22,851 nt of DNA from a virus. The DNA lies in IMG/VR virus record IMGVR_UViG_3300045240_000197, positions 1 through 22,851 of that record. The stretch is one strand, 5' to 3'. A program made the position numbers and the translations under genes. Under the pieces are notes generated by a model. It searched no databases, was not told the DNA's origin, and saw only the letters and a list, made by a program, of their open reading frames with translations. Of this stretch, positions 2,623-21,112 are shown one piece after another (positions within the stretch are counted from its first letter, which is position 1; every line of letters begins with the position of its first letter).

Positions 2623-2642
2623 GCTTTATCGTCCCGCCATCG

Positions 2643-2670
2643 CGCTCTGCGAACGAAGGTTCGCGGAGCG
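2643..2670 (+). terminator. Stem-loop after the early operon
   Basis: CGCTCTGCGAAC (2643-2654) pairs with GTTCGCGGAGCG (2659-2670) over 12 bp including one G-U, with a GAAG loop. It starts about 20 nt after the stop of the DUF6456-like gene. The following TGCGTCGTTT is only weakly T-rich, so it may be a weak or factor-assisted terminator, or a 3' protective stem. Confidence 0.45.
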
Positions 2671-2705
2671 TGCGTCGTTTATGATCGACAGTGCCGAAAA
2701 TTTTC

Positions 2706-2738
2706 TCGCGAAATTTCTCTCGCGAACGATTTTCGCGA
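2706..2738. repeat. Three spaced TCGCGA motifs upstream of the late promoter
   Basis: TCGCGA occurs at 2706-2711, 2720-2725 and 2733-2738, at 14- and 13-bp steps, in a locally AT-rich block that starts with the palindrome GAAAATTTTC (2696-2705). The last copy touches the -35 at 2739. Placement is typical of activator sites, but the binding protein is unknown and the regular spacing could be chance. Confidence 0.4.
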
Positions 2739-2767
2739 TTGACAGGGGGACCCCTTCGGCGTACTCA
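2739..2767 (+). promoter_or_regulatory. Late (structural operon) promoter
   Basis: TTGACA (2739-2744), a perfect -35, a 17-bp spacer and TACTCA (2762-2767) as -10. The spacer contains AGGGG-GA-CCCCT (2744-2755), a short palindrome between the two boxes. The predicted start is near 2774. It is the only strong promoter seen before the long block of same-strand tail genes, so it probably drives them. Confidence 0.65.
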
Positions 2768-2788
2768 TTTCGTCATGGTGAGTTGATG

Positions 2789-2822
2789 CGCCTCGCGGAC
2801 GAAACGTCCGGCGGGGCGTTTT
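2789..2822 (+). terminator. Leader terminator (attenuator-like) just downstream of the late promoter
   Basis: CGCCTCGCGGACG (2789-2801) folds on CGTCCGGCGGGGCG (2805-2818): 13 pairs including one G-U, one bulged G, and an AAA loop. TTTT directly follows, then CATTT. This is the shape of an intrinsic terminator, and it begins about 15 nt after the predicted transcript start and before any structural gene. Constitutive initiation with termination here unless relieved would match an antitermination switch. The rest of the gap, up to 2914, shows no reading frame that I would support. Confidence 0.6.
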
Positions 2823-2914
2823 CATTTCCGGACCTCGCCGGCGCCATTTCCTTCCCACCGATCACGCACGAACGCGCACGGCTCCGTCGCGCGTCGAACG
2901 AAAGGATGTTCGCC

Positions 2915-3094
2915 ATGCCCAAGAACAACGAAGAGTTCGTCGATTTCACCGCCCGCGACGGCGTCACCATCTACACCGCCCGCGGCGTCACCGGTCACAA
3001 GGCCGGCACGACCGTGCGCCTGCCCAAGAGCCATGCCGATGCGCTGTCCCATGTCGCGCATCACGCCGCAGGCCCGGCGAAGCTGACGGACTGA
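2915..3094 (+). CDS. Small unknown protein preceding the tail genes (59 aa)
   Basis: The protein begins MPKNNEEFVDF and contains a probable small beta region (TARDGVTIYTARGVTGHKAGTTVRL) followed by a short helix with three histidines. ATG at 2915 is preferred because GAAAGGA ends about eight bases upstream. An in-frame ATG at 2906 abuts that signal. In Mu a short DUF2635 protein (gp38) occupies a similar place next to the sheath, and size and beta character are compatible. The sequence match is too weak to assign. It is the first gene of the late operon. Confidence 0.55.
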   Translation: MPKNNEEFVDFTARDGVTIYTARGVTGHKAGTTVRLPKSHADALSHVAHHAAGPAKLTD

Positions 3095-3103
3095 AATCTC
3101 CCC

Positions 3104-3124
3104 GCGGCCGTGCGGCCCGGCCGC
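3104..3124 (+). other. Intergenic hairpin in the late operon
   Basis: GCGGCCG (3104-3110) pairs with CGGCCGC (3118-3124) around a TGCGGCC loop, followed by TCTCTT. It lies between the 59-residue gene and the tail terminator gene. It could be a partial terminator or an RNA stability stem. Confidence 0.35.
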
Positions 3125-3162
3125 TCTCTTCCACTCTCATCTCTTAAGGCACGGAGGCCGCG

Positions 3163-3972
3163 ATGCTTTGGCGGGCGATGCTGCGCGGCACCGCGCTCGG
3201 GCTTCTCGCGAATGCGGCGACCGCGGCGGGTATCAGCCCGTCCTGGTTCTCCGTCTATTCGCGCGACAGGAAGCGCGGCGACTATGGCGGTGCGCCGGAG
3301 TTCGAGACCACTAACGAATTCCGCGTCGAGATCCGCGCCGAAGCCTCTGCGCCCGACGGCACGCCGTCGGATCAGATCGAAAGCGTGGCGCGCGCACTTG
3401 CGCAGAGCAAGCTCGATGCGCTGTGCGAACTCGCGGAGCAAGCCTTGCTCGGCGGGCAGGGCTTCGACGTCACCATCGCCTGCACTGCCGACAGCGCCAC
3501 CGCCACGCCGGCGAGCCTCACCGGCCTGGCCGTGGGCATGATGCTCAGCGGCCCGGGCATCAGCCCGCGCGATCCGTTCCTCGCGATCGCGGCGATCAAT
3601 ACCGGCGGCACGGTGACGCTGTCGGCGCCCTACCAAGGGTCCACCGGCAGTTATCTCTTCACTGCCGGATCCTTCATCGCCCTGTTCGAGCGCATCGACA
3701 GCGTCGATTCCTATCCGCGTCACCGCGGCATGGAGGGGACGAGCTACATCGCGCGCGAGACCATCCAGATCACCGGCCACGTGCACGAAATCTTCGAGCC
3801 GTCGCGCGGCTCCGACCTCAGCGGCATCAACCTCTACGTCGATGCCGTCAACATCTTCGACCCGAACGGCGACTTCGTCGGCCAGGAACCGTTCGCCGTC
3901 GTGCCCGCGCCGCGTACGGCCGGGCCCGACGGGCGTCCCGACATCGTGGCCGACGTCGATACCAACGCTTAA
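3163..3972 (+). CDS. Tail terminator-like protein with an inserted beta domain
   Basis: A 269-residue protein directly upstream of the sheath. The N-terminal third (SWFSVYSRD, ETTNEFRVEIRAEA, then ALAQSKLDALCELAEQALLG) has the strand-strand-helix look of tail terminator/completion proteins, which cap the sheath and tube. Residues about 103-165 (CTADSATATPASLTGLAVGMMLSG, NTGGTVTLSAPYQG) resemble the small Gly-rich beta motif common in phage tail and fibre proteins and look inserted. The core resumes at about 170 with IDSVDSYPRHRGMEG and ITGHVHEIFEP. Usual terminators are roughly 130-180 residues, so this one is long. The start has GGAGG (3153-3157) five bases upstream. In a headless particle it would close the head-distal end. 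The family call rests on position and fold pattern. Confidence 0.6.
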   Translation: MLWRAMLRGTALGLLANAATAAGISPSWFSVYSRDRKRGDYGGAPEFETTNEFRVEIRAEASAPDGTPSDQIESVARALAQSKLDALCELAEQALLGGQGFDVTIACTADSATATPASLTGLAVGMMLSGPGISPRDPFLAIAAINTGGTVTLSAPYQGSTGSYLFTAGSFIALFERIDSVDSYPRHRGMEGTSYIARETIQITGHVHEIFEPSRGSDLSGINLYVDAVNIFDPNGDFVGQEPFAVVPAPRTAGPDGRPDIVADVDTNA

Positions 3973-3984
3973 AGGAGACCCACC

Positions 3985-5625
3985 ATGGTGGATATCGGTT
4001 TCAACTACGTTCCTTCCAATCAACGCATTCCCGGAATCTATCCCGAAGTCGAAGGCGACATCCCCGGCCAGCCGCCGCAATGGTCGCTTCTGATCGGCCA
4101 GGCGGCCAGCACGGTCACCTCGTTGCCGGGTTCGCCGCTCATGATCAGCTCGGTCGCCGCGGCGGTCAGGCATTTCGGCGCCGCGTCCATGATCGCCTCG
4201 ATGGTCGAGCGCTATATGGGCTCGGATCCGAACGGCACGCTCTGGGTGATGGCATTGCCCGAGCATAGCGGCATGGCCTTCGCCAAGGGCTCGATCACCT
4301 TCGCCGGCACCGCGACGGAAGCCGGCACGATCAACCTCTACATCGGCGGCCGCTTCGTCAGCGTCACCGTCAACCTGGGCGACACGGCGGCGACGATCGC
4401 GACGAATGTCGTCAGCGCGATCACCAACTACTTCGACTCCAACCAGCTGGGCCTCAAGGCCAAGAACCGTCAGTTCCTCGGCGTGAAGATGCCCGTGGGA
4501 GCTGCGGTCGACGGCACCACGGCCGGCAAGGTCGTCCTCACCTGCACCTTCAAGGGCACGGCGGGCAACAAGATCGACGTCCAGCTCAACTACTACGGCA
4601 CCAGCGGCCGCGAAGAGCTGCCGGCCGGCATCACCGCGACGGTCAGCGCGATGGGCGTCGATCAGGCGGGCGCGGGCGATCCCGACACCAGCGGTCTGGA
4701 TGCGATCCTCACCGACACGAAATACGACTTCATCGTCCAGCCCTGGGCGACCAATCCGGATCCGGCCCATCCCGGCAACAGTCTGTCCGTGCAGTCGCTC
4801 ACCGACTTCCAGACGCTCATGGCCGACGACACCGGCCGCTGGTCGCCGCTGCGCAAGGTCTACGGCCACGTCTTCTCGGCGGCGTCCTTCTCGACGAACG
4901 GCAACGACGCGGTGAGCTTCGGCGCCACGCGCAACGACCGGCACATGACCATCGTCGCCTATGAGCAGTCGGCGCCGATGCCGCCCTACGACGTGGCGGC
5001 GGCCTATGCCGGCGCGTTCGCGGCGAGCTCGCGCGTCGATCCGGCGCGGCCGAGCCAAACGCTTCCCGTCGTCGGCATCCTCGCCCCGCACAGGAGCGCA
5101 CGTTTCAGCGCCGCGACGCGTCAGACGCTGCTCGGCGTCGGTCTCGCGCTGATGGACTACGAGCCGGACTACACCTGCCGCATCCTGCGCGCGGTCACGA
5201 CCTACCAGCTCGACGAGAACGGCAGTCCGGACATCTCCTATCGCGACACCGAGACGCTCTACACGCTGATGGCGGTGGTGCGTCAGATGACGGCGGATTG
5301 GGGCGCGGCCTATCCGCGCGCCAAGATCATCGACGACGACGTCGCCTTCGGCCCCGGCAGCAGCTTCGCCGCCGGTCTTCCCGATCAGCCGGTGGTGACG
5401 ACCAAGAGCGGCAAGGCGGTGCTCACCGCGTCCTACTCGCGCATGGCAAACGGCAACAGCCAGGCGATCTGGGTGACGGACACCGACTCGTTCGCGAGCA
5501 ACCTGATCCTGCAGCGCAACGGCCTGGATCCGACGCGTCTCGACGCGTTGCTTCCGATCGTCCTGGCTTCGGGCCTCAGGGTCACGGCGATGAAGGTCGA
5601 TTTCGCGCTGCAGGCTGCCGCCTGA
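3985..5625 (+). CDS. Contractile tail sheath protein (Mu gpL-like)
   Basis: A 546-residue protein beginning MVDIGFNYVPSNQRIPGIYPEV, the Mu gpL-type opening with the RIPG-Y motif that extends into the neighbouring subunit. Middle domains follow (about residues 95-230, with Ig-like strands TFAGTATEAGTINLYIGG). The conserved C-terminal part includes GRWSPLRKVYGHVF, the ATRNDRHMTIVAYE segment and a terminal MKVDFALQ strand that completes the handshake. Mu gpL is about 495 residues, so this is slightly longer. It polymerises around the tube and contracts to drive it through the target envelope. AAGGAG lies upstream of the ATG. Its presence shows that the particle is of the contractile (myovirus/R-type) kind. 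Confidence 0.95.
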   Translation: MVDIGFNYVPSNQRIPGIYPEVEGDIPGQPPQWSLLIGQAASTVTSLPGSPLMISSVAAAVRHFGAASMIASMVERYMGSDPNGTLWVMALPEHSGMAFAKGSITFAGTATEAGTINLYIGGRFVSVTVNLGDTAATIATNVVSAITNYFDSNQLGLKAKNRQFLGVKMPVGAAVDGTTAGKVVLTCTFKGTAGNKIDVQLNYYGTSGREELPAGITATVSAMGVDQAGAGDPDTSGLDAILTDTKYDFIVQPWATNPDPAHPGNSLSVQSLTDFQTLMADDTGRWSPLRKVYGHVFSAASFSTNGNDAVSFGATRNDRHMTIVAYEQSAPMPPYDVAAAYAGAFAASSRVDPARPSQTLPVVGILAPHRSARFSAATRQTLLGVGLALMDYEPDYTCRILRAVTTYQLDENGSPDISYRDTETLYTLMAVVRQMTADWGAAYPRAKIIDDDVAFGPGSSFAAGLPDQPVVTTKSGKAVLTASYSRMANGNSQAIWVTDTDSFASNLILQRNGLDPTRLDALLPIVLASGLRVTAMKVDFALQAAA

Positions 5626-5669
5626 TCGGCGCTCTTCCGCAATAACCAAATCACGCAATGGAGTGAAAC

Positions 5670-6041
5670 ATGGCCGGTCAACGTATTGGCGGTACCCTCT
5701 TTCTGATGATCAACGGCGTCCAATATCCCGCGCGCGGGAGTTGGGAATACACCCCCACGATGAGCGAGCGCACCGGCATCGCGGGGCAGGACGGCGTCCA
5801 TGGCTACACCGAGAAGCCGACGGTGCCGTCGATGAAGGGCGACGTCTCCGATTTCGGCGGCATCTCGATCCAGGCGCTGCAGCAATCGACGGTGTCGGTG
5901 GCGACGCTCTCGCTCGCCAACGGCAAGGTCGTCGTCGGTCACGATGGCTGGGTGAAGGGTGCGATCACCTCGCACACCGAGGACGGCAAATACTCGCTCG
6001 ATCTCGAGTTCACCCGCGTCATCGAGCAGCCGTCGAGCTGA
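5670..6041 (+). CDS. Tail tube protein (Mu gpM-like)
   Basis: A 123-residue protein starting MAGQRIGGTLFLMINGVQYPARG, typical of the Mu-type tail tube family. The following GSWEYTPTM, GVHGYTEKPTVPSMKGDVSDFGG and LANGKVVVG segments fit the beta-barrel that stacks as hexameric rings. It would form the inner tube whose length is set by the tape measure. GGAGTG lies upstream of the ATG. The sheath-tube adjacency is the standard contractile-tail arrangement. Confidence 0.92.
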   Translation: MAGQRIGGTLFLMINGVQYPARGSWEYTPTMSERTGIAGQDGVHGYTEKPTVPSMKGDVSDFGGISIQALQQSTVSVATLSLANGKVVVGHDGWVKGAITSHTEDGKYSLDLEFTRVIEQPSS

Positions 6042-6086
6042 CCTTCACCCCTCCGTTAAGCCAGCGTCCCACTTAAGGAGACTCTC

Positions 6087-6428
6087 ATGGATACCATCAC
6101 GCTCACCCTTTCCGAGCCCATCCAGGCGCACGGCAAGGAGATCACCACGCTCGAGTTCCGCAGGCCCACCGGCGCCACCATCCGCCGCTGCGGCGCGCCG
6201 ACCAAGATGCAGCGCGTCGAAGGCGGCGAGCCGGTGGTGCTGCTCGACATGGACTCGTACGCCCGCTACGTCGCCGAGTGCGCGCAGATCCCCGCGCCCT
6301 CGGTCGATCAGCTCGCGGCCGAGGACTTCTTCGCCTGCGTCGGCGTGGTCGACGGTTTTTTCGGACAGTCGAAGACCCGCGAAGAGTCTGGGACGGACAC
6401 CAGCTCCTCGAGCAATACCACAGCCTAG
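6087..6428 (+). CDS. Tail assembly chaperone (Mu gp41-like), zero-frame product
   Basis: A 113-residue protein, MDTITLTLSEPIQAHGKEITTLEFRRPTG, the opening of the Mu gp41/E-type tail assembly chaperones that coat the tape measure during tube assembly. The conserved core runs to about residue 92 (AAEDFFACVGVVDGFF). The remaining Ser/Thr-rich tail (SSSSNTTA) looks non-conserved, as expected for a product that ends shortly after a frameshift site. TAAGGAG lies upstream. It lies between tube and tape measure, the universal position for this pair. Confidence 0.88.
   Translation: MDTITLTLSEPIQAHGKEITTLEFRRPTGATIRRCGAPTKMQRVEGGEPVVLLDMDSYARYVAECAQIPAPSVDQLAAEDFFACVGVVDGFFGQSKTREESGTDTSSSSNTTA
6356..6362 (+). 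promoter_or_regulatory. Programmed -1 ribosomal frameshift site, T TTT TTC
   Basis: In the zero frame the codons read GGT TTT TTC GGA, so T-TTT-TTC fits X-XXY-YYZ. A -1 slip keeps TTT in both decoding sites and opens the frame that runs to 6538. No clear downstream pseudoknot or strong stem was found by eye. Frameshifting at this gene position is well known for long-tailed phages, including Mu-type gp41/gp41'. Confidence 0.85.
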
Positions 6429-6538
6429 CGCTCGCCTATCACGACCTCTCGGTCTTCGACTGGTCGTTCGACGAGGTCGAACGCTCCGTTCCCATCCTCA
6501 ATCGCATCACCGAACGCTGGAACAAGGAGGAGACGTAA
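6362..6538 (+). CDS. -1 frame extension of the tail assembly chaperone (gp41' part)
   Basis: After the slip, residues 1-92 of the zero-frame protein join 58 residues that begin RTVEDPRRVWDG, giving a protein of about 150 residues. The extension has a coherent helical pattern (HSLALAYHDLSVFDWSFDEVE, PILNRITERW), typical of the GT-type partner that contacts the tape measure. It ends at 6538, one base before the tape measure ATG. The frame has no good start codon with a ribosome site of its own, which supports expression only by frameshift. Confidence 0.82.
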   Translation, partial: RTVEDPRRVWDGHQLLEQYHSLALAYHDLSVFDWSFDEVERSVPILNRITERWNKEET

Positions 6539-6539
6539 C

Positions 6540-8678
6540 ATGGCTTTTGCCGCCGCTGTTCCTTTTCCGGCGCTCAACGGCGCTCTCGAGCGCTTCGCCA
6601 AGCTCACCACCGGCGTCACCGGCTCGACCTGGCGCTTCGGCCGCCTGTTGGACAACACCAATGACCGTCTGGGCGATCTCGCGCGATCGTCGGACGCGAC
6701 TTGCAACGCGATCGACAAGCTGGGGCAGGCTTGTTCCGCGCTGCTCTCGCAGTTCCAGCGCGGCGGCAAAGCGCTCGCGCAGGGCCCCACTTCGACGTCG
6801 CGCCATGTGCCGCCGACGGCGACGGGCGGACAAGCGTCCACACCGCCTATTCCTCGTACCAGACCGGGCAGCGGTGCCCCGCATCCGGCGGCGCCGAGCA
6901 AGTCCTGGCTCGACCATGTGTTCGACGTGATCGGCGACATACATGAGCGTGCGGACAAGGCATCGGTTCCGTTCTACGCGGGCAAGGCCGGTTTCGACGT
7001 CGTGAAGGGCATCGGCGAGTTTTTCTCCAAGCGCTCGCATAAGAAGCTTACGGGATTTCGAAAGTTCGCGCATGAAGGCACGAAGCTCCTCGGCAGCACT
7101 CTCGATATCGGCGCTTATACCGCCGACGCCGTGTCCGATTCGATGGATGCGTTCCAGAAGCTGCGCGAGGGGAAATTGTCGGAGGCCGCGGCCGATGCCG
7201 GCAAGGTGTTCGACGATATCGGCGACATCCGCACCGCGTGGAAGGGGCCCACGCGCTTCCTGCGCAGCAATTTTTTCGCCAAGGAAGGCGAGCACGCGCT
7301 GACGCACAATATGGGCTGGGGCAGTAGAGCTTTCCAAGCGGCGCGAAACGCCCCTCCCGCCTTGAGAAGCGGGCTGAGCCGGCTGCTTTCCTTCGGCGGC
7401 CGCGCCGCTGCCACGGAAGGCCTCGAAGCCGGAGGCACGCTGCTCGAAGCAGGCGCGGCCGGCGGCGAAGCGCTGGCGGGCGGCGAAGCCTTGGCCGGCG
7501 GTGCCGGGCTGCTGGAAGCCGGCGGCGGAATGGCCGCGCTGGCCGGCCTCGAAATGACACCCGTGGGCTGGGGCCTCACCGCCGCGGCCGTCGCGGGGTT
7601 TGCGGGTTACGAAGCCTACAAGCATCGCAAGCAGATCGCGCAATTCGCCTCGAACATGTGGCAGAAGAGCGCGCCGCTGCGCAACGCCGCCTACAACGCG
7701 CTGCCGTTCATTCCCGGCGGCAACCTCATCAAGGGCGCGATCGACGCCGCACCTGCGCTCGCGAAGATGGCGCAACCGGCGGTGAACAAGGTGAAAGCCG
7801 GTGCCAACTGGGTCGGCGATTTCGCCGTCGGTCTCGGCGACATGGCGTGGCAGGGGTTGAAGAAAGGCGCGCAGGGCGTCAAGGCGCTCGCGAGCTCGGC
7901 CTGGTCCAACGTCACGCAGAAGGCGCACGCCGCCTGGAACACCGTCACCACGAAAGCGGGCGCCGCATGGCATGCGGTGACGACCCGCGCCCAGTCGACC
8001 TGGAAAAGCGTCACCACCGTCGCCGCCAATGTCGGCCACAAGGTTGCCGACGCGGTCAAGAGCAAATGGTCGCAAGCCACCAGCTTCTTTGGCGGTCTGT
8101 GGCACAGCGCGACGAACGTGGCCTCGCAAGTCTGGGCGAAAGCAAAGCCCTTTGTCGACAAGGCCGGCCACGCGGTGAAGACCATGCTCGACAAGCACGG
8201 CGTCACGGCGCTGGCGCATCGCGTCGTCAACACCGTGGCGGCGGTGAAGAACAATGTGGTCGCCACGGCGGTCCAGCTTGGTCACGCGCTCGACAAGGTC
8301 GCGCAGCACGGCCATGAGATCCGTCAGGGCTGGGCCAAGGACGAAGCGGCGCAGAAGCGTGCGGCAAACACGGGCGCGCAGGCCTTGAAGAATGCGCAGG
8401 CGCACGCCCGCGTCCACGCGACGACGCTCAGGCACGCGCATCACGCCGTGCATCGCCACCTGCATCCGCATCATCATCGCCATCTGGGCGTGCACGCGCC
8501 GGCCGATATGCAGGGGCTCAGGGGGCGGCCGGGCGGCTCGTCTCAGGGCGGCGGCGGGTCCGGCTATGCCGACATCCGCGTGCATTTCGAAAATGCGCCG
8601 CAGGGTACGCGCGTCAGTACGCGCACCGGCGGCTGCTGCCCGCCGCATGTCGAGACCGGCGTCGCTTTCGGGCACTAA
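6540..8678 (+). CDS. Tape measure protein
   Basis: A 712-residue, largely helical, Ala/Lys-rich protein following the chaperone pair, with AAGGAGGAG upstream. Visible regions: a helical start; a Pro/Gly/Ser-rich linker (about 80-120); a Gly/Ala/Glu stretch and a hydrophobic segment near residues 340-360 (GWGLTAAAVAGFAGY), as often seen in tape measures that enter the inner membrane; eight 11-residue units with Trp at 455-532; a His-rich stretch (about 622-652, including HPHHHRH); and a Gly-rich end with CCPPH. At about 0.15 nm per residue it would set a tail near 105 nm, within the range of R-type particles. I see no lytic transglycosylase or peptidase motif, so no muralytic domain is assigned. 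Confidence 0.88.
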   Translation: MAFAAAVPFPALNGALERFAKLTTGVTGSTWRFGRLLDNTNDRLGDLARSSDATCNAIDKLGQACSALLSQFQRGGKALAQGPTSTSRHVPPTATGGQASTPPIPRTRPGSGAPHPAAPSKSWLDHVFDVIGDIHERADKASVPFYAGKAGFDVVKGIGEFFSKRSHKKLTGFRKFAHEGTKLLGSTLDIGAYTADAVSDSMDAFQKLREGKLSEAAADAGKVFDDIGDIRTAWKGPTRFLRSNFFAKEGEHALTHNMGWGSRAFQAARNAPPALRSGLSRLLSFGGRAAATEGLEAGGTLLEAGAAGGEALAGGEALAGGAGLLEAGGGMAALAGLEMTPVGWGLTAAAVAGFAGYEAYKHRKQIAQFASNMWQKSAPLRNAAYNALPFIPGGNLIKGAIDAAPALAKMAQPAVNKVKAGANWVGDFAVGLGDMAWQGLKKGAQGVKALASSAWSNVTQKAHAAWNTVTTKAGAAWHAVTTRAQSTWKSVTTVAANVGHKVADAVKSKWSQATSFFGGLWHSATNVASQVWAKAKPFVDKAGHAVKTMLDKHGVTALAHRVVNTVAAVKNNVVATAVQLGHALDKVAQHGHEIRQGWAKDEAAQKRAANTGAQALKNAQAHARVHATTLRHAHHAVHRHLHPHHHRHLGVHAPADMQGLRGRPGGSSQGGGGSGYADIRVHFENAPQGTRVSTRTGGCCPPHVETGVAFGH
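7899..8162 (+). repeat. Eight 33-bp (hendecad) repeats in the tape measure gene
   Basis: Trp codons sit at 7902, 7935, 7968, 8001, 8067, 8100 and 8133, each a multiple of 33 bp apart; only the unit at 8034 lacks Trp (Gly). Typical units read AWSNVTQKAHA, AWNTVTTKAGA and AWHAVTTRAQS. An 11-residue period equals three helical turns, which suits a straight or right-handed coiled coil. Confidence 0.85.
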
Positions 8679-8693
8679 CCAACGGGACATCCG

Positions 8694-10992: not shown

Positions 10993-11568
10993 ATGCGCGC
11001 AGTCCTAGACCGCATGGCCGCCCGCGTGCGCACCATGGTGACGCGCGGCCGCGTCACCAGCACTACGCTCAATCCCAAGCGGCCGCTGGTCCAGCTCTCC
11101 GGCCTCGCCGGCGAGGTCAAGACCAAGATCGAGCTCTTCGTTCCGATGGGCATGAGCGTCTATCCGACGGGCAACGAGGACGTGCTGCTGCTGCAGATCG
11201 ACGGCTCGCGCTCGCATCTCGTGGCGATGTTCGCCGACAATCCGGCGCTGCGCATCCAAGACCTGCAGCCGAACGAGTTCGGCCACCGCGACGCCAACGG
11301 CCAGCAGATCGTCTTCCGCCAGGACAAGCTCGAGATCACCTCGCCCTTGAAGATGGTGGTGAACATCACCGGCGACGTCGACCTCACCGTCGGCGGCAAG
11401 GTCGTGGGCAGCGCGCAGGAGTGGGACCTGACCGGCAACGTCAAGGTCACGGGCGACATCAGCGCCACGGGCCAGGTCAGCGACGGCGTGCGCAGCATGC
11501 AGGGCGACCGCAACATCTACAACGGCCATCACCACGGCTCGAGCTCCACACCGGATCATCTGCAATGA
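10993..11568 (+). CDS. Baseplate spike protein (Mu gp45/gpV-like)
   Basis: A 191-residue protein. An OB-like N-terminal part (RGRVTSTTLNPKRPLVQLSGLAGEV, VFVPMG-type strand) is followed by a repetitive beta section (KLEITSPLKMVVNITGDVDLTVGGKVVG, GNVKVTGDISATGQ) that predicts a trimeric beta-helix needle. It ends in NGHHHGSS (H179-H181), the His-x-His metal site at the tip of Mu and P2 spikes. The spike pierces the target outer membrane when the sheath contracts. ATG at 10993 with AAGGA nine bases upstream was chosen. Overlaps the next gene by ATGA. Confidence 0.92.
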   Translation: MRAVLDRMAARVRTMVTRGRVTSTTLNPKRPLVQLSGLAGEVKTKIELFVPMGMSVYPTGNEDVLLLQIDGSRSHLVAMFADNPALRIQDLQPNEFGHRDANGQQIVFRQDKLEITSPLKMVVNITGDVDLTVGGKVVGSAQEWDLTGNVKVTGDISATGQVSDGVRSMQGDRNIYNGHHHGSSSTPDHLQ

Positions 11569-14006: not shown

Positions 14007-14023
14007 GCTTCAGGGAATAGATC

Positions 14024-15868
14024 ATGAGCGACGCTTCCATCAGCGCCTTGAACCCGGCTGACCTGCCGTTGTCGGACGAGCAGATCCCTTGCGTGCAGGC
14101 GGGCATCAATAAGCGTGCTCCCGCCGCTGCGTTCGGCGTGCCTGTGGTGGGTCTCAGCACGCCCGCGCTGGCGCAGTACCAGACCTGGATCGATACGAGC
14201 ACCACGCCGCCGGCGCTCAGGATGTATATCGGCTCGGACTGGGTGGCGCTCTACACCATCGCGGGCGACGGTTCGCTCGCGCTCGCCAGGCCGCTCGCGC
14301 TGCCGGGCGATCCCGCCTCCGACCTCGACGCCGCGACCAAGAGCTATGTCGACAACAATCCGGCCGCGCCCGGCGCGCTGATGTTCGTCGCCCCGATCGA
14401 TTGCTCGACCAATCCCAACTATCCCGCCGCCAACCAGGGCGCGGTCTATATCGTGAGCGTCGCGGGCAAGATCGGCGGCGCCTCCGGCATCAACGTGCAG
14501 ATCGGCGACATGCTGCTCTGCCTCGTCAACGGCTCGATATCGGACACCCAGGCCGGTGTCGGTGCGAATTGGACGATCGCGCGCGGCATCGGCGGCGCGG
14601 TCATCGGCCCGAGCTCGGCGGTGAGCGGCAATTTCGCGCTGTTCGGCGACGCGACCGGCAAGGCGATCATCGACGGCAGCATCTCGCTCGACACCGACGC
14701 GACTTTTGCCGCGAACAGCGACACGCGCGTCCCGTCCCAGAAGGCGGTGAAGAGCGCGATCGGCGGCAAGCTCTTGAGCACCGACACGCTGACACAGGGA
14801 CAGAGCTGGATCTGGGACGGTGTCACCTCGACCTTCCGCGCGCGCGACTGCGAGGGCAAGAACTTCCTCGGCAACCCCGCGTTCGACATCTGGCAGGAGA
14901 ACACCGCCTACACGATCTTCGGCGGCACGCCGCGCACGCACACGGCCGATTTCTGGAAAGCCGGGACCAAGGACACGTCCGGCGCGGCCAAGACGGTCAC
15001 CCGCGTCGCGGGTCTTTCGGGAGCGCAATACGCGATGAAATGCCAACGCACGGCTGGCGACAGCGTCTGTCTCGGCAAGTTCCGCATCGCCCAGCAATTC
15101 GGCCAGGCCGAGTCGATGTTCCTCGCCGGAAAGAACCTCGTGGTGTCCTTCGATTTCGTGGTCGGCGCCAATTATTCGGCGACGGTCGGCGATCTGATGT
15201 TGAACTTCGCCTGCGGCAACGGCGTGGACGAGGCGCTCGATCTGCATCTCGGCACGCCGCAATTCGCCACCAATCCCGTCCTCGTCGGCTCCGCGGCGCT
15301 GACAGGCCAAGTCGCCGCGGCCGGCACGGTGGCACGCATCAACAGCGGCCCGATCGCGATCCCCGCGGGCATCACCGAGCTCGCGATGTTCATCCGCACC
15401 GGCGACTACACCGGCACGGCCGGCGCCGACGACAGCTTCACCATCGGCAACGTCAAGCTGGAGATCAGCAATCTCGCCACGCCCTTCCGCAAGCCCGACA
15501 CCGGCGACGAGTTCCGGCGCTGCCAGCGGCGCTATTGGAAGAGCTTCCTCAAGGCGACCGTTCCGGTCAACGCCGCCGGCGCCGGCACGGGCGAGCATCG
15601 CGCCGCCGCGACGAAAGCGGGCGCGGCTCAGCAGACGCTCGGCACGGTGCGCTACCCGGCCATGCGCGCGGTCCCGGCGATGACGCTGTTCAATCCCGCG
15701 ACGGGCGCGAGCGGACAGGCGCGCGATCTGACGGCGGCCGCGGACTGCACTTCGACCGCGGCGCAGAACATCTCGGACGGCGGCTGCGAGATCGTCGCCA
15801 CCGGCGCCTCGTCGACCGCGCTCGGCAACACGCTCGGCGTCCATGTCGTCGCCGATGCGCGGCTCTGA
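14024..15868 (+). CDS. Tail fibre protein 2 (paralogue of fibre 1)
   Basis: A 614-residue protein co-linear with fibre 1: docking domain (LPLSDEQIPCVQAG, WIDTSTTPPALRMY, 1-95), one shaft module (about 120-250; VVD-free SVAGKIGGASG, PSQKAVKSA), beta-sandwich from N280 (NFLGNPAFDIWQENT, AQQFGQAESMFLAGKNLVVSFDF), CQRRYWK motif (C500) and the same ending GVHVVADARL. Differences from fibre 1 concentrate in the sandwich loops (for example the segments after YAMKCQR and around GNGVDEALDLH), which suggests different ligands on one scaffold. AGGGA lies about ten bases upstream of the ATG. It is an in-place duplicate rather than a fragment. Confidence 0.85.
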   Translation: MSDASISALNPADLPLSDEQIPCVQAGINKRAPAAAFGVPVVGLSTPALAQYQTWIDTSTTPPALRMYIGSDWVALYTIAGDGSLALARPLALPGDPASDLDAATKSYVDNNPAAPGALMFVAPIDCSTNPNYPAANQGAVYIVSVAGKIGGASGINVQIGDMLLCLVNGSISDTQAGVGANWTIARGIGGAVIGPSSAVSGNFALFGDATGKAIIDGSISLDTDATFAANSDTRVPSQKAVKSAIGGKLLSTDTLTQGQSWIWDGVTSTFRARDCEGKNFLGNPAFDIWQENTAYTIFGGTPRTHTADFWKAGTKDTSGAAKTVTRVAGLSGAQYAMKCQRTAGDSVCLGKFRIAQQFGQAESMFLAGKNLVVSFDFVVGANYSATVGDLMLNFACGNGVDEALDLHLGTPQFATNPVLVGSAALTGQVAAAGTVARINSGPIAIPAGITELAMFIRTGDYTGTAGADDSFTIGNVKLEISNLATPFRKPDTGDEFRRCQRRYWKSFLKATVPVNAAGAGTGEHRAAATKAGAAQQTLGTVRYPAMRAVPAMTLFNPATGASGQARDLTAAADCTSTAAQNISDGGCEIVATGASSTALGNTLGVHVVADARL

Positions 15869-15879
15869 TTGAGGACGCG

Positions 15880-16575
15880 ATGAAAGACGATCTGAGCCGC
15901 GAACGCCTGCCGCCTGCGTCCCTGCCGCTCGTCGGCGAGGCCGTGACCTGCGTGCAGGACGGCATCCGCGTCACCGCGCCCGCCGCGGCGTTCGGCATTC
16001 CGGTGGCGAGCGTGTCGGCGCCGCCGCCGCTCGCGCCATTCCAACTCTGGATCGACCAATCCACCTGGCCGCCCAGCTTGCGCATCTATGTGGACGAGCG
16101 TTGGATCGCGCTCTATGCGATCGGCGACGACGGCACGCTTGCGCTCTCGGCCGCGTTGGGCCTGCGTGCGACAGCGATCGCCGACGCACCGTCGCCTTCG
16201 ACGGCAGGCCGGATATCTTTCCATTCCGATGCGCAAGAAGGCCAGGGCGATCTCGCCGTTGATACCGGCACGGCCTGGCGCCATGCGGGCCAGGCCGCGG
16301 TCCGGACGCTGAGCACCGATGCGGATGCGAGCTACGCGCCGCGCCTCGATGGCCGCATCGTCCGTGACACGGCTGCACTGACGGCCGACCGCGCGCTGAC
16401 GCTTTCGAACGCGACCGACGGCTACAGGATCGACGTCACGCGCCGCAATTCGTCCGGCGGTCACCTCCGCAACGTCACTCAGCAGGACGGCACGACGGTG
16501 ATTGCGGCGCTCGCCGACGGAGCGAGCGCGGCCTTCATCTACGACGCGACGAGCGGCGCGTGGTTCCAGCTCTGA
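15880..16575 (+). CDS. Short tail fibre/tip protein 3 with shared docking domain
   Basis: A 231-residue protein. The first about 95 residues repeat the docking domain of the neighbours (LPLVGEAVTCVQDG, WIDQSTWPPSLRIY, LYAIGDDGTLAL). It lacks the shaft module and the NLLVNSAF sandwich. The rest is a different short beta region (STAGRISFHSDAQEGQGDLAV, DTAALTADRALTLSN, IDVTRRNSSGGHLRN, FIYDATSGAWFQL) resembling end-cap modules of fibre and appendage proteins. It could be a short alternative fibre or a stopper that occupies fibre sites. ATG at 15880 is the start that preserves the docking domain. Confidence 0.75.
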   Translation: MKDDLSRERLPPASLPLVGEAVTCVQDGIRVTAPAAAFGIPVASVSAPPPLAPFQLWIDQSTWPPSLRIYVDERWIALYAIGDDGTLALSAALGLRATAIADAPSPSTAGRISFHSDAQEGQGDLAVDTGTAWRHAGQAAVRTLSTDADASYAPRLDGRIVRDTAALTADRALTLSNATDGYRIDVTRRNSSGGHLRNVTQQDGTTVIAALADGASAAFIYDATSGAWFQL

Positions 16576-16597
16576 CTTTTCTTCGCAAGGTATCCCG

Positions 16598-19525
16598 ATG
16601 AGCGACAGTACCATCAGCGGCATGATGCCCGCGTCGTTGCCGCTTGGCGACGAGTCCGTGCCCTGTGTGCAGGACGGCAACAACGTCCAGGCGCCGGCCG
16701 CCGCGTTCAGCATCCCTGTCGCCGGCGACTCCGCGCCCACGGCGCTGGCGCAGTTCCAGACCTGGATCGACACCTCCACCGCACCGCCGGCACTGAAGAT
16801 GTATGTCGGCTCGGCTTGGGTCGCGCTCTATACGGTCGGCGGCGACGGGACGCTGGCGCTCGCCAAACCGCTCGGGCTTTCGAGCGACGACCGGTTGACG
16901 AGCGCGCTCAGGTTCAAGAGCGTCATCGACTGTTCCGCCAGCCCCAACTATCCGCCCGCCGATCTCGGTGACTTCTATGTGGTCAGCGTCGCGGGCAAGA
17001 TCGGCGGCGCGTCGGGCGTCAGCGTGCAGGCGGGCGATACGCTGCTCTGCCTCGCGAACGGCACGCCGTCGGATACCCAGGCCAATGTCGGCGCAAGCTG
17101 GACCATCGGCCAGAACAACATCGTCGGTGCGGTCACCGGACCTGCTTCGTCCACCGTTGGCGGTTTCGCCGCCTTCGCCGATGCCACCGGCAAGGTCGTC
17201 CAGGACAGTGGTGTCATCCTCGACACCGACACGGCGATGGCCGCCAATGTCGACAGCCGCATCCCGTCGCAGAAGGCGGTGAAGAGCTATGTCGGCGGCC
17301 AGCTGAGCGGCGCACTCTTCTATCGCGGCTCCATCAGTTGCTCGGGCTCGCCCAACTATCCGTCGGGCAATACCGGTGACTTCTATGTGGTGAGCGTGGC
17401 AGGCAAGATCGGCGGCGCCTCGGGCCCCAATGTCGAGATCGCCGATACCTTGACGTGCATCGCCGCCAATGCGGGCGGCACGCAAGCCGCGGCCGGGGCG
17501 AATTGGACGATCGGACAGGGCAACATCGACGGCGCGGTCACGGGTCCCGCCTCCTCGACCAGCGGACATTTCACCCAATTCGCCGACGCCACCGGCAAAG
17601 TCGTCCAGGACAACGGTATCATCCTCGACACCGACCCGGCGCTGACCGCCAATGTCGACAGCCGCATCCCGTCGCAGAAGGCGGTGAAGAGCTATGTCGG
17701 CGGCCAGCTCAGCGGCGCGCTCTTCTATCGCGGCTCCATCAATTGCTCGGGCTCGCCCAACTATCCGTCCGGCAATATTGGTGACTTCTATGTGGTGAGC
17801 GCCGCGGGCAAGATCGGCGGCGCCTCGGGCCCCAATGTCGAGATCGCCGATACCTTGACGTGCATCGCGGCCAATGTGGGCGGCACACAAGCGTCGGTCG
17901 GCGGCAGCTGGACGATCGGGCAGGGCAATATCGACGGCGCCGTCACCGGTCCGGCTTCGGTGACCGGCGGTAACTTCGCTTCGTTCAACGGCACGACGGG
18001 TAAGATCATCCAGGACGGCAGCGCCGCGCTGGACACCGATCCGAACATGACCGCCAACCTCGACAGCCGCATCCCGTCGCAGAAGGCGGTCAAGTCCTAC
18101 ATCTCCGCCAACGGAACGGTACCGGCGGGGACGGTGATCTATCGTGGCGGCCTCAGCTGCAGCGCCAGCCCGAACTATCCCACCGCCAACCAGGGTGATT
18201 TCTACGTCGTCAGCGCCGCGGGCAAGATCGGCGGCGCCTCCGGACTGAATGTCGAGATCGGCGACACGCTGCTCTGCACCACCTCGTCCGCCAGCGGCAC
18301 CCAGGCCGGCGTCGGCGCCAATTGGACGATCGGGCAGGGCAATATCGACGGCGCGGTCACCGGCCCGGCATCGGCGACGAGCAACGGTTTCGCGCTGTTC
18401 AACGGAACCACCGGCAAGATCATCAAGGACAGCCTGGCCACGTTCGACACCGACGCGACGATGGCCGCGAACAGCGACAACCGCATTCCCTCGCAGAAGG
18501 CGGTGAAGAGCTATGTCGGCAACTTCGTAGGGCCGAACCTGCTCGTCAACTCCGCCTTCGACGTCTGGCAGGAGAACACGGCCTACACGCTGTCCTCGGG
18601 GTCGACCAAGACCCATCTCGCCGATTTCTGGAAGGGCGGCTGCGAGAACAGCGGCACGCGCACGGTTTCCCGGGTGACCGGCCTGCAGGGCTCGCTTTAC
18701 GGCCTGAAGATGCAGCGCCCTTCGAGTTCCGCGGCCGCCACGGCCTCCCATCTCGTGCAACAGTTCGAGCAGCGCGAGTCGGTCTACCTCGCGGGCAAGA
18801 CGGTCACGGTCTCGTTCGACTTCACGATCGGCGCGAATTATTCGCCGGCAACCGGTCCGTTCGTCGAGCTGTTCTACGGAACCGGGAACGAGGAGGATCT
18901 GGTGATGAACACCAGCCCGCCGGCCTTCCCGTCCGGCGGCAGCAGCGTTTCGTCGCCGGATCTTTCAGCGCAGGTCGCCGCTTTCGGCTCGACGGCGCGG
19001 ATCAGCGCCACGTTGACGCTGCCGTCGACAGCGTCGGAGGTCGCGCTCGGCATTCGCTCCGGCGTCTACACCGGCACCGCGGGTGCCGATGACAGCGTCA
19101 CCATCGACAATGTGAAGCTCGAGATCGGCAGCGTGGCCACGCCTTATCGCAGGCCCGACTATCGCGATGAGCTCGAGCGCTGCCAGTGGCGCTATCAGAA
19201 ATCGTTCCTGCAAGGCACGGTGCCCACGACGAATGCCGGCGTCTATACCTGCCAGTTCATCTTCCGGCGCATCCTCTCGGGCGTAACTTTCGAAGCCTGC
19301 TGGGTGCCTTTGCGGCGCAACATGCGCGGCGTGCCGGCGATCACGCTCTACAATCCCGAGAACACCAACAGCCAGATTCACAACGACAATACAACCGCCG
19401 ACTGTTCCTCGAGCACGACGGACTACACGACCGAATTCGGCTTCCGCGTGAGCTGCCTCGGCGACAGCGGTGGCGTGCCGGGCAATGCGCTGTGCGTCCA
19501 TTGGGTAGCAGACAAGCGCCTCTGA
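16598..19525 (+). CDS. Long tail fibre protein 4 with tandem shaft repeats
   Basis: A 975-residue protein from the ATG at 16598 (CAAGG upstream). Layout: docking domain (1-95; LPLGDESVPCVQDG, WIDTSTAPPALKMY); four tandem shaft modules of 135-138 residues (about 106-640), each with CS-x-SPNYP, GDFYVVS-AGKIGGASG, a WTIGQ segment, and PSQKAVKSY; the beta-sandwich from N647 (NLLVNSAFDVWQENT, QQFEQRESVYLAGKTVTVSFDF); CQWRYQK; and a C-terminal tip quite unlike fibres 1 and 2 (CQFIFRRILSG through CVHWVADKRL). Same scaffold, about 400 residues longer shaft and a new tip, so it should reach farther and bind something different. An in-frame ATG at 16502 would run into fibre 3 and is not favoured. Confidence 0.87.
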   Translation: MSDSTISGMMPASLPLGDESVPCVQDGNNVQAPAAAFSIPVAGDSAPTALAQFQTWIDTSTAPPALKMYVGSAWVALYTVGGDGTLALAKPLGLSSDDRLTSALRFKSVIDCSASPNYPPADLGDFYVVSVAGKIGGASGVSVQAGDTLLCLANGTPSDTQANVGASWTIGQNNIVGAVTGPASSTVGGFAAFADATGKVVQDSGVILDTDTAMAANVDSRIPSQKAVKSYVGGQLSGALFYRGSISCSGSPNYPSGNTGDFYVVSVAGKIGGASGPNVEIADTLTCIAANAGGTQAAAGANWTIGQGNIDGAVTGPASSTSGHFTQFADATGKVVQDNGIILDTDPALTANVDSRIPSQKAVKSYVGGQLSGALFYRGSINCSGSPNYPSGNIGDFYVVSAAGKIGGASGPNVEIADTLTCIAANVGGTQASVGGSWTIGQGNIDGAVTGPASVTGGNFASFNGTTGKIIQDGSAALDTDPNMTANLDSRIPSQKAVKSYISANGTVPAGTVIYRGGLSCSASPNYPTANQGDFYVVSAAGKIGGASGLNVEIGDTLLCTTSSASGTQAGVGANWTIGQGNIDGAVTGPASATSNGFALFNGTTGKIIKDSLATFDTDATMAANSDNRIPSQKAVKSYVGNFVGPNLLVNSAFDVWQENTAYTLSSGSTKTHLADFWKGGCENSGTRTVSRVTGLQGSLYGLKMQRPSSSAAATASHLVQQFEQRESVYLAGKTVTVSFDFTIGANYSPATGPFVELFYGTGNEEDLVMNTSPPAFPSGGSSVSSPDLSAQVAAFGSTARISATLTLPSTASEVALGIRSGVYTGTAGADDSVTIDNVKLEIGSVATPYRRPDYRDELERCQWRYQKSFLQGTVPTTNAGVYTCQFIFRRILSGVTFEACWVPLRRNMRGVPAITLYNPENTNSQIHNDNTTADCSSSTTDYTTEFGFRVSCLGDSGGVPGNALCVHWVADKRL
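16913..18520 (+). repeat. Four in-frame tandem repeats of about 408 bp in fibre 4
   Basis: The proline codon of the SPNYP motif falls at 16943, 17351, 17756 and 18170, giving periods of 408, 405 and 414 bp, all multiples of three. Repeats 2 and 3 are nearly identical DNA (about ten differences by eye in their first 175 bp). Repeats 1 and 4 are more divergent. Single copies of the same module occur in fibre 1 (Pro codon at 12558) and fibre 2 (14414). Confidence 0.9.
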
Positions 19526-19556
19526 TTTTCAGCATCCATCTCTCACAGGTGATCCC

Positions 19557-20612
19557 ATGCCGTTCCGCCGATCCACGCTGAGCGATCTGCGCCTGCGCGC
19601 GCGCTCCATCTTCGCCGCCAAGCTCAAAGGCGCCGATGCCACGCTGCCCAGATCCAACATCACCGTGTCCTCGGACGTGATGGCGGCCTTGGTCTACGGC
19701 ATCTTCGGCTATGCCGATTGGCTGTCGCGCCAGGCGCTGCCGAACACCGCCGACGATTGGTATTACCTGCTTCGCTGGGGCTCGCTGTTCGGGCTCGCGC
19801 CCAAGCCCGCGGTGGTGGCGAGCGGCAACGGGCTCTTCACCGGCACCGCAGGCACGAATGTGGCGCTGCACACCAAGCTCCAGGACAGCCAAGGCAATCT
19901 CTATCAGACGACGGCGGCAACGACCTTGATCGCCGGCAGCACCACGATCCCGGTGGTGGCGATGACGGGCGGCGACTTCGGCAATCTGCCCGCGGGCGCG
20001 CTCCTGGCCTTCGTCACCGCGCAATCGGGCGTCGACGGCACGGTCACAGTCGACGGCAGCGGTTTCTCCGGCGGTGTCGATGCGGAGAGCGCCCAGGCTT
20101 TCGGCGCGCGTATCTCCGCCCGCATCCAGAACCCGCCGAGCGGCGCGGGCACCATCTCCGACTATCAACGCTGGGCGATGAGCGTCGCGGGCGTCACGCG
20201 CGCCACCGCCACCGCGGGCGAGCGCGGCGTAGGCACCGTCAATGTCCGCTTCGTCATGGACGGCCAGGCCAACATCGTCCCGACCACGGCACAGATCGCG
20301 GCGGTGCAGGCCGTGCTCAACATCGAGAAGCCGATCACCGACGATGCCCAGGCGATGGCGCCGGCGAAATTGGCGGTCAACTACACGCTGTCGAACTCGC
20401 TCGTCGCGACCAGCGTACGCCCCGCCATCGCGCAGGCGCTGGCCACCATGCATTCCGGCCTCGCGATCGGCGCCGGCCTTTCCGTGCAGGGCCAGATCAT
20501 CCCGGCGATCACGTCAGTGGCCAAGCTCAACGGCACCTTCCTGAGCGCGCCCGCCGACACGCCGGCGAACACGAGCAAAGTCCTAACCCTTGGAACGATC
20601 ACCTACTCATGA
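19557..20612 (+). CDS. Baseplate J-like protein (Mu gp47)
   Basis: A 351-residue protein with the baseplate J pattern: an N-terminal helix region (LSDLRLRARSIFAAKL, YGIFGYADWLSRQALPNTAD, LLRWGSLFGLAPKPA), an internal beta insert (about 95-165), then ESAQAFGARISARIQNPPSGAGTISDYQRWAMSVAGV and the ferredoxin-like closing part (VNVRFVMDGQANIVP, IEKPITDDAQAMAP). It forms the wedge ring with gp46 and gp48. In Mu it directly follows gp46; here four fibre genes lie between. AGGTGA is five bases upstream of the ATG. It overlaps gp48 by ATGA. Confidence 0.93.
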   Translation: MPFRRSTLSDLRLRARSIFAAKLKGADATLPRSNITVSSDVMAALVYGIFGYADWLSRQALPNTADDWYYLLRWGSLFGLAPKPAVVASGNGLFTGTAGTNVALHTKLQDSQGNLYQTTAATTLIAGSTTIPVVAMTGGDFGNLPAGALLAFVTAQSGVDGTVTVDGSGFSGGVDAESAQAFGARISARIQNPPSGAGTISDYQRWAMSVAGVTRATATAGERGVGTVNVRFVMDGQANIVPTTAQIAAVQAVLNIEKPITDDAQAMAPAKLAVNYTLSNSLVATSVRPAIAQALATMHSGLAIGAGLSVQGQIIPAITSVAKLNGTFLSAPADTPANTSKVLTLGTITYS

Positions 20613-21112
20613 GCGGACCCTACACATCCCTGACGGCCGACGATTATCTCGCCGCCGCCCAAGCCCTGTTGCCGCGCGGAGCGGCGTGGTCGCGCGACCC
20701 CGACGCGAACCTGACCAAGTTCTTGAGCGCGGTCGCCAACGTCGCCTATCTCCCGCACCAATCGCTCGCCGGCCTGTTCGAGGTCGAGCTCGATCCGACG
20801 CAGACGGTCGACCTGCTGCCCGATTGGGAGGCGGCGTTCGGCATCACCGCGCGCGGCTCGCAGGCCAACAGGCGCGCGAACCTCAAAGCGGTGATCACCG
20901 ATCCGGGCGGCTTCAGCGCCGGGCATTATGTGGCGCTCGCCGCCACGCTCGGCATCACCATCGGCACCACCAACGTCATCAGGACAGGTGCCTTCAGCTG
21001 GAAGATCCAGGCGCAGACGAGCCTGAGCGCGGCGCTGAAGACCGCGCTGCAGAACCTGATCGCTCAGCACAACCGCGCCACCTGCACCGTCGCTTTCGAC
21101 TACAGCCTCTAG
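20609..21112 (+). CDS. Baseplate wedge protein Mu gp48-like (YmfQ/DUF2313 family)
   Basis: A 167-residue protein opening SLTADDYLAAAQALLPRGAAWSRDPDANLTKFL, the start typical for gp48/YmfQ proteins, then LDPTQTVDLLPDWEAAFGI, another family signature, and a C-terminal half with GHYVALAATLGITI and LIAQHNRATCTVAFDY. It closes the wedge and normally bridges to the fibres. ATG lies in the stop of gp47, so the two are probably translationally coupled. In Mu the fibre genes follow this one; here they precede it and the lysis-type genes follow. Confidence 0.92.
   Translation: MSGPYTSLTADDYLAAAQALLPRGAAWSRDPDANLTKFLSAVANVAYLPHQSLAGLFEVELDPTQTVDLLPDWEAAFGITARGSQANRRANLKAVITDPGGFSAGHYVALAATLGITIGTTNVIRTGAFSWKIQAQTSLSAALKTALQNLIAQHNRATCTVAFDYSL

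Follow-up and report, generated by a model that had tools for sequence, protein, structure and literature searches.

Phage-like bacteriocins of Rhizobium appear in two titles, of 1973 and 1974, in the reference list of PMC10598620, and the available part of the 2024 paper on rhizoviticin states that no earlier tailocin had been reported in Alphaproteobacteria (PMC10811719). Within the available portions of the literature on alphaproteobacterial R-type tailocins, including PMC10811719, PMC10598620, PMC11080155, and PMC12142844, no sequence-defined one was found. Gene transfer agents (GTAs) provide the closest described regulators; GafA of the Rhodobacter GTA belongs to the DUF6456 family (PMC9638019, PMC9765227), and GafZ of Caulobacter is described as an antiterminator that binds a palindrome between the −35 and −10 elements and allows transcription to continue beyond a terminator that follows the first gene (PMC11150451), as far as the excerpts of these papers go. 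Here we describe a contractile tail locus in IMGVR_UViG_3300045240_000197, a whole IMG/VR record of 22,851 bases that was used entire and is called the window below. With a probability of roughly 0.82, we read it as a chromosomal R-type tailocin island of an uncultured soil alphaproteobacterium, derived from a headed Mu/SfV-type myophage minus its head and packaging genes. Because of the Rhizobium bacteriocins of 1973 and 1974, no claim is made to a first in the class. Tailocins themselves are known; the new elements are the apparent GTA-type control and, in two relatives, cargo that seems to carry the tail of the tape measure.

Contractile Tail and Absence of Head Genes

Gene calling, with the unambiguous tail genes as the training set, yielded 25 open reading frames (ORFs) in the window, and the family searches covered 23 of these with Pfam and 20 with PHROGs. 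The parts of a Mu/SfV-type contractile tail were all present with open ORFs, in the order sheath, tube, tail assembly chaperone, tape measure, gp43, gp44, gp45, gp46, gp47, and gp48, with the fibers between gp46 and gp47. The first-pass annotation, made from the DNA letters alone, had proposed a complete contractile tail lacking any head gene, in agreement with both searches, which name the tail parts and give no head match that holds. Pfam returned no head family in the ORFs it covered, and the sole head-type rows in PHROGs were two scaffolding matches (E 0.41 and 0.47), both belonging to one 133-aa coiled-coil protein. When 12 head proteins from three phages were used as tblastn queries, the single match in the window was a module common to an insert of its 269-aa protein and the major capsid protein of L003, a headed cousin from IMG/VR. 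Terminase, portal, and capsid, the mark of a complete prophage, were found in the window by neither PHROGs nor tblastn. No replication or integration gene was recognized among the scanned ORFs, no search having been aimed at an integrase.

Between the DUF6456 gene and the sheath (2622–3985), the same annotation had counted only a 59-residue protein and a tail terminator-like protein, and these two ORFs indeed occupy the space with nothing else. The 59-aa protein (2915–3094, plus strand), whose frame is open back to 2681, has a homolog behind the capsid gene in L003. The 269-aa tail terminator-like protein (3163–3972, plus) is a relative of the L003 tail terminator and carries an insert at about 3463–3672, which is similar to the C-terminal region of the L003 major capsid protein (38.6% over 70 residues). 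A module of ~65 residues is thus common to this capsid (L003:5793-5990) and to the tail terminator (window 3463–3672). Two look-alike copies lie within the sheaths of the relatives G001 and G004 (L016:13987-16026 and L005:259-2289) and none in the window sheath; the likeness of these sheath modules to the terminator insert is weak. The structural model of the 269-aa protein had a pLDDT (predicted local distance difference test) of 50.4, too poor for a fold search.

Surroundings of the Island in Relatives and Headed Loci

Stop codons bound the window at both ends, the one on the left being on the minus strand, as is usual for provirus records cut at the borders of genes. The window is a trimmed IMG/VR provirus, and its own flanks lie outside the record. 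At its left end is a 38-aa hydrophobic ORF (1–117, minus), at whose stop codon the record starts; an ORF of 38 aa and like make-up, as judged by eye, also occurs in G001.

The only genome of GTDB matched in the sheath scan was that of the alphaproteobacterial metagenome-assembled genome Centralia_MAG_140 (G001), on the 172-kb contig C37 (locus L002). Its island repeats the order of the window from the S24 repressor to the 97-aa protein. We read 100 kb of this contig, comprising 39 kb to the left and 23 kb to the right of the island. An alpha/beta hydrolase and a Glu/Leu/Phe/Val dehydrogenase are among the genes on the left, and a small ORF, hipA, tRNA-Thr, and EPSP synthase lie on the right. 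The hipA gene stands directly right of the 97-aa gene in G001 (L015:2604-3821, minus) and in G004, where it is the last gene; this position is past the end of the window. For 59 of the 67 flanking ORFs of G001 (two of the others spanned the locus ends and six were of 61 aa or less), no PHROG named as head or packaging was matched at E 1e-8; many PHROGs carry no functional name, so that the absence of a head family means none so named at that threshold. In the whole 100 kb, tblastn with the 12 head proteins found the shared surface module only. The terminase/portal/capsid set that, according to the first-pass annotation, would speak against a headless island was therefore absent from 39 kb left and 23 kb right of the G001 island, and the synteny check that it suggested gave the same layout with host-type genes outside. 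Taken together, these data show a complete contractile tail with no head genes in the island or around that of G001. Two further records add little to the flanks: G003 (IMG/VR) is identical to G001 over 37,974 bases and was not counted as a separate island, and G004 is cut on the left, starting inside the tail terminator gene.

Headed loci served as a comparison. In L003, whose sheath is about 60% identical to that of the window, the order is terminase, portal, protease, decoration, capsid, 59-aa-like protein, head closure, tail terminator, and sheath; judged by this gene order, L003 shows what the window island would have lost. A survey of 385 class genomes gave 15 other alphaproteobacterial sheath loci, and in 14 of them head genes lay no more than 12 kb upstream of the sheath. 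The detection of heads in these 14 loci and in L003 indicates that the search was able to find them. By itself, tblastn overlooked 6 of the 14 headed loci; for seven undecided loci, 42 of 88 upstream ORFs were scanned, with 25 of 37 families among the matches listed. At the fifteenth locus (L066), no head gene was present among five upstream proteins scanned singly. Transposase-type families occurred among the pooled upstream proteins of the seven undecided loci, including L066.

The only PF03237 terminase match of G001 is on another contig, in an RcGTA-like cluster that also holds portal, capsid, head-tail adaptor, major tail protein, and a short tape measure.

Host of the Island

A repetitive extragenic palindromic (REP)-like element at 208–235 of the window marks the host order. 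It occurs in 107 copies in G001, in up to 121 copies per genome, and in 35 of the 96 genomes of the order of G001, compared to only 3 in a sample of 289 class genomes, these 3 being likewise in the list of the order; by chance, none would be expected in the window. This distribution suggests that the host of the window very probably belongs to the same alphaproteobacterial order as G001.

Regulators and a Candidate Tail-Operon Switch

Two divergent regulators lie at the left end of the window. The CI/LexA-type S24 repressor of 244 aa (336–1070, minus; PF00717 3.7e-7, phrog_4 8.7e-21) faces a protein with a LexA DNA-binding domain (1151–1462, plus; PF01726 4.6e-8), and between them operator-like TAGGANNNNTCCTA sites occupy 1061–1118 (at 1061 with one mismatch, at 1084 with two, and at 1105 exact). 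On the other side of the repressor gene, an operator-like palindrome, TAGGAAATTTCCTA, spans 128–141, with sites at the equivalent place in G001. Exact matches to TAGGANNNNTCCTA number two in the window (128 and 1105) and one in the 100 kb of G001 (39717); besides that at 1061, a one-mismatch match lies at 10118 within the hub gene, and looser ones are scattered. Sites of this form thus flank the repressor gene on both sides in the window and in G001. The two repressors have a near-identical linker with an Ala-Gly pair, as well as a GDSM serine region and a lysine region, which we take to be the features of autocleavage. A search of PDB sequences with the repressor gave no match.

Downstream of the LexA-domain gene are a small ORF with weak Holliday-junction-resolvase/endonuclease matches (1462–1827, plus; phrog_5702 0.013, phrog_93 0.068), another without a family match in Pfam or PHROGs (1824–2015, plus), and the gene for a DUF6456 protein (2017–2622, plus; PF20057 2.8e-7), a candidate late activator or antiterminator of the GafA/GafZ family. 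The latter scored 31.2 bits, above the curated cut-off of 26.3, and its G001 copy scored 40.7 bits. Of 14 control genomes, PF20057 matched Caulobacter alone, a result given for the genome and not for a named gene. In G001, contigs C43 (L068) and C8 (L042) carry the RcGTA-like cluster together with a strong DUF6456 protein (133 bits), and the DUF6456 protein of the tail island itself is divergent. The comparison with Mu-like phages made in the first-pass annotation fits the tail but not the control region, as the S24 repressor, LexA-domain protein, and DUF6456 protein differ from the known regulators of Mu.

A terminator-like hairpin follows the DUF6456 gene on its 3′ side (2641–2672, plus; sequence scan). 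Beyond it we recognized a candidate tail-operon promoter (2739–2767, plus), consisting of TTGACA, a 17-nt spacer with the palindrome GGGGGACCCC (2745–2754), and TACTCA. Between this promoter and the first tail gene is a hairpin followed by TTTT (2789–2822, plus), which is kept in G001. No stretch of the intergenic region is better conserved than the block of promoter, palindrome, and hairpin, in which 43 of 50 bases are identical between the window and G001, compared to at most 30 in 30 shuffles. In G001 the palindrome reads GGGGGGCCCCC, and one hairpin pair is T-A instead of T-G. In the window, the block is part of a frame open to the 59-aa gene; in G001 this frame closes within the block, indicating that the block is not kept as protein. 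By analogy with GafZ, antitermination by the DUF6456 protein at the tail promoter seems somewhat likely.

Tail, Fiber, and Putative Release Genes

All genes in this part of the window are on the plus strand. The sheath (3985–5625; phrog_165 1e-121) is followed by the tube (5670–6041; PF10618 5.8e-23) and the tail assembly chaperone (6087–6428, with an extension to 6538; PF10109 1.4e-13), whose extension in the −1 frame covers 6278–6538, with a T TTT TTC heptamer at 6356–6362. The tape measure protein of 712 aa (6540–8678; phrog_58 4e-14) bears a C-terminal tail motif at 8568–8615. The baseplate genes start with a DNA-circularization/gp43-like protein (8694–9896; phrog_184 2.8e-81), the gp44-like hub (9893–10990; phrog_177 7.5e-102), the gp45-like spike (10993–11568; PF06890 3.4e-10), and the gp46-like wedge (11565–12182; PF07409 2.6e-25), and resume behind the fibers with the gp47-like baseplate J wedge (19557–20612; PF04865 5e-47) and the gp48-like wedge (20609–21112; PF10076 2.3e-11).

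Fiber 1 has 606 aa (12186–14006; phrog_4492 9.8e-30), and fiber 2, with 614 aa (14024–15868), is 59% identical to it. A short paralog of 231 aa (15880–16575) has approximately its first 95 residues in common with the other fibers, and fiber 4 (16598–19525) reaches 975 aa with internal repeats, as revealed by sequence comparison. The repeat-bearing fiber 4 measures 2222 aa in G001 (L015:10327-16995) and 1941 aa in G004. G001 also encodes an 865-aa protein (L015:4812-7409, minus) that looks fiber-like by eye, gave no Pfam match, sits between the holin-like and 97-aa genes, and has no counterpart in the window. The core tail ORFs being open, the description of everything from sheath to fibers as intact stands with one correction, that there are four fiber genes, one of them short (231 aa).

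Behind gp48 are a 120-aa protein (21123–21485), a holin candidate by position and hydrophobic stretches only, with no significant Pfam or PHROGs family match, a hemolysin/holin-like small protein (21715–22116) with weak matches to phrog_937 "hemolysin" (3.7e-5) and phrog_689 (0.021), and a 97-aa protein (22558–22851) that shows 84–86% identity in both relatives, G001 and G004. While the repressor and regulators were found in the window, weak matches are what supports the lysis genes. The "holin-type genes" noted earlier accordingly reduce to the weak phrog_937 match of 3.7e-5, with no endolysin identified.

Conservation and Distribution

Between the window and G001, identity is highest in the repressor (85.7%), the 97-aa protein (84%), the tube (83.7%), the 133-aa protein (83.2%), and the 120-aa protein (82.5%). 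The best segment of the sheaths is 68% identical, and similarity between the tape measures is confined to the C-terminal ends. Ratios of nonsynonymous to synonymous substitution rates (dN/dS) between G001 and G004 ranged from 0.16 to 0.58 in 14 island genes and hipA, being below 1 in all 15. These values show constraint, though not of the strongest kind.

Throughout the 385 class genomes, other sheaths reached at most 325 bits compared to 1067, and a distant sheath was seen in G034 (L008) in the scan of the 96 genomes of the order. Scans of IMG/VR with the sheath, the sheath alignment, DUF6456, 97-aa, and cargo-domain queries disclosed no islands beyond the loci named here. A search for an attachment-site repeat between the tRNA-Thr at the right end of the G001 island and its left end gave at best 12 bases (E 0.073), which is unconvincing.

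Cargo-Like Genes in Two Relatives

The tape measure and gp43-like genes of G001 and G004 are separated by several others, four of which encode proteins (400, 769, 594, and 507 aa) with ~100 to 130 similar N-terminal residues that resemble the tail of the tape measure; these four genes are located at L016:9974-11176 and 7131-9440 (minus strand) and at L005:5158-6942 and 7323-8846. Run on the G001 genome, a profile of this N-terminal domain matched the tape measure at its C-terminal end (E 1.3e-16). Compared with tape measures directly, it gave 3.2e-20 for G001 and 2e-11 for G004, E-values that refer to six proteins only, and was weak on those of the window, SfV, EU982300, and BgVeeders33. The core shared by cargo domains and tape measures approximates I-x-V-x-F-x-N-x-P, from which BgVeeders33 departs.

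The C-terminal parts differ among the four proteins. That of 769 aa contains HEIGH twice and HETGH once, with a sub-threshold Pfam match to ATLF (24.4 vs. 27.4 bits), and that of 507 aa contains one HEIGH. The 594-aa protein has an isoelectric point (pI) of 9.4 and one HEPPH and is followed by an acidic ORF of 109 aa (pI 4.4); a basic protein with an acidic ORF is an arrangement frequent in toxin/immunity pairs. No motif of the HExxH type is present in the 400-aa protein or in the remaining proteins of the same comparison, and Pfam gave no significant match for the 400-, 594-, and 507-aa proteins. We considered whether the extra genes could form one long tape measure, which is ruled out by their separate ORFs. 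On the basis of these sequence similarities, we propose that the tape measure uses its tail to dock at the baseplate, and that the cargo carries a copy of this tail. In the titles and abstract openings among the matches listed for tailocins or polymorphic toxins with tape measure or cargo, no tailocin of such design appeared.

The window has no cargo gene, its tape measure ending at 8678 and the gp43-like gene starting at 8694. The cargo-domain profile, run on all six frames of the window at E 1, matched the tape measure only.

Alternative Readings

One alternative is that the window is a fragment of an ordinary headed prophage, with head genes beyond the borders of the record. The trimming that placed its flanks outside the record would allow this, and loci that combine a head with a related tail are frequent in the class; however, the 12 kb upstream of the sheath, where L003 and 14 of the 15 loci keep their heads, hold the repressor and regulators in the window and likewise in G001. 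As no head was found in 39 kb to the left or 23 kb to the right of the G001 island, and hipA directly adjoins the 97-aa gene in both G001 and G004, we regard such a fragment as improbable. A decaying prophage remnant without function seems equally improbable: rarity of the island, one short fiber ORF (15880–16575), and the lack of an endolysin, integrase, or replication gene recognized among the scanned ORFs would agree with decay, whereas the core tail ORFs are open, dN/dS is below 1 in 15 of 15 genes, and the regulators, operator-like sites, and promoter block are kept despite sheaths of 68% identity. Still less credible is a split virion, in which heads would come from another locus of the same genome, such as a GTA cluster. 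G001 does have terminase, portal, and capsid on another contig, but this cluster is RcGTA-like and possesses its own head-tail adaptor, major tail protein, and short tape measure, and besides the terminator-like protein no head-tail connector was recognized in the island. The combination with a GTA head was dropped, since the GTA-like cluster brings its own tail genes.

An effector-delivering contractile injection system, rather than a tailocin that depolarizes membranes, overlaps with the tailocin reading and differs from it in the harm done to the target. The cargo-like proteins of two relatives, with their tape-measure-tail-like start and varied ends, the HEIGH/HETGH motifs in two of them, and the acidic ORF behind another would favor delivery, as would the tape-measure-related effectors described for actinobacterial systems in the accessible parts of PMC11126660 and PMC13277306. 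The window itself has no cargo gene, and Pfam revealed neither an AAA ATPase nor a DUF4157 match in its 23 scanned ORFs. Extracellular contractile injection systems of the Afp/PVC type carry an AAA+ ATPase gene in the cluster, a gene for which those ORFs gave no match. Effector delivery is rather unlikely, though less so than the three alternatives above.

Several observations weigh against an R-type tailocin island. Both flanks can be read in one relative only, G001. The island is also rare, as the sheath scan gave one locus in GTDB and three in IMG/VR, one of which is the headed L003, and the strong match among the 96 genomes of the order was G001 itself only. Constraint is only moderate in several structural genes (dN/dS 0.3–0.58), and no endolysin was identified in the ORFs covered by Pfam and PHROGs. 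As to control, the DUF6456 match of the window is weak (31 bits), the model of this protein (pLDDT 36.0) is too poor for a fold search, and a PDB sequence search with the DUF6456 pair matched no solved structure. The −10 element of the candidate promoter is poor, a consensus scan listed neither the promoter at 2739 nor the hairpin at 2789, and terminator-like sites are not above shuffles (2 vs. a shuffle mean of 2.4). We nevertheless favor the R-type tailocin, the fit put forward in the first-pass annotation, for the complete tail, the lack of detected heads, and the agreement with G001 in regulators, layout, and promoter block.

Proposed Mechanism and Significance

In the mechanism that we propose for the tailocin, a DNA-damage signal would lead the S24 repressor to cleave itself, opening the operator-like sites beside its gene. 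The DUF6456 protein would then be made and, like GafZ of the Caulobacter GTA, would bind the palindrome inside the tail promoter and enable RNA polymerase to read past the early hairpin and on into the ~20-kb tail operon. Tails lacking heads would assemble around the tape measure, and the holin-like proteins could help to release them. Finally, the fibers would choose a related target cell, whose membrane would be punched and depolarized upon contraction of the sheath.

More broadly, the window could be the cargo-free form of an alphaproteobacterial tailocin family that is run by a GTA-type antiterminator and in which some members load toxin cargo via a copy of the docking tail of the tape measure; from the sequence comparisons, we offer this family tentatively. 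If true, it would join pore-forming tailocins and effector-injecting systems. The island also suggests that a single family of regulators, described from gene transfer agents, runs a tail weapon as well, G001 being one genome with both a GTA-like cluster and a tail island. The loading rule indicated by the relatives would be that an effector with the tail of the tape measure docks at the site used by the tape measure and travels inside the tube. In any case, the window supplies a sequence-defined candidate for a contractile tailocin in Alphaproteobacteria.

Comparison with Known Systems

The cluster EU982300 of Pseudomonas fluorescens Q8r1-96 ("phage DVM-2008") is SfV-type and headless, with the same tail order as the window: a gene in the tail-terminator position, sheath, tube, tape measure, gp43, hub, and gp45–gp48. 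It too has a Cro/CI-type repressor, and its annotation of 30 features names no head gene; its sheath is 34% identical to that of the window. The differences concern the start, where EU982300 has PrtR, Com, holin, and colicin-M-like genes in place of the LexA-domain and DUF6456 genes, the fibers, which follow gp48 together with assembly proteins whereas the window has four fiber paralogs between gp46 and gp47, and a lysozyme that is annotated in EU982300, none being identified in the window. Phage SfV, as annotated, has the tail order of the window except for the placement of its fibers.

Rhizoviticin of Allorhizobium vitis is likewise alphaproteobacterial and derived from a prophage minus its head genes. 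According to the part of that report available to us, it is F-type and non-contractile, in contrast to the contractile tail of the window, and keeps replication-related genes and an integrase remnant, neither of which was recognized among the scanned ORFs of the window (PMC10811719). The phage-like bacteriocins of Rhizobium of 1973 and 1974 are also alphaproteobacterial, a likeness drawn from their titles (PMC10598620).

For the regulators, the Caulobacter GafYZ GTA shares with the window the DUF6456 family, a palindrome between −35 and −10, and a terminator early in the operon, whereas GafYZ drives a headed GTA and GafZ works with GafY and IHF, as set out in the available sections (PMC11150451). 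The likeness of GafZ to the window protein runs via the PF20057 family and not through direct alignment. For the cargo, Tme and Sle1 of actinobacterial (Streptomyces) systems are effectors akin to tape measures whose C-terminal part is enzymatic or varies; both have a link to DUF4157, and in Sle1 it is the N-terminal coiled coil that is shared, to judge from the portions of these papers at hand (PMC11126660, PMC13277306). The cargo-like proteins of G001 and G004, unlike Sle1, share with the tape measure its short C-terminal tail, set at the N-terminus of the putative effector.

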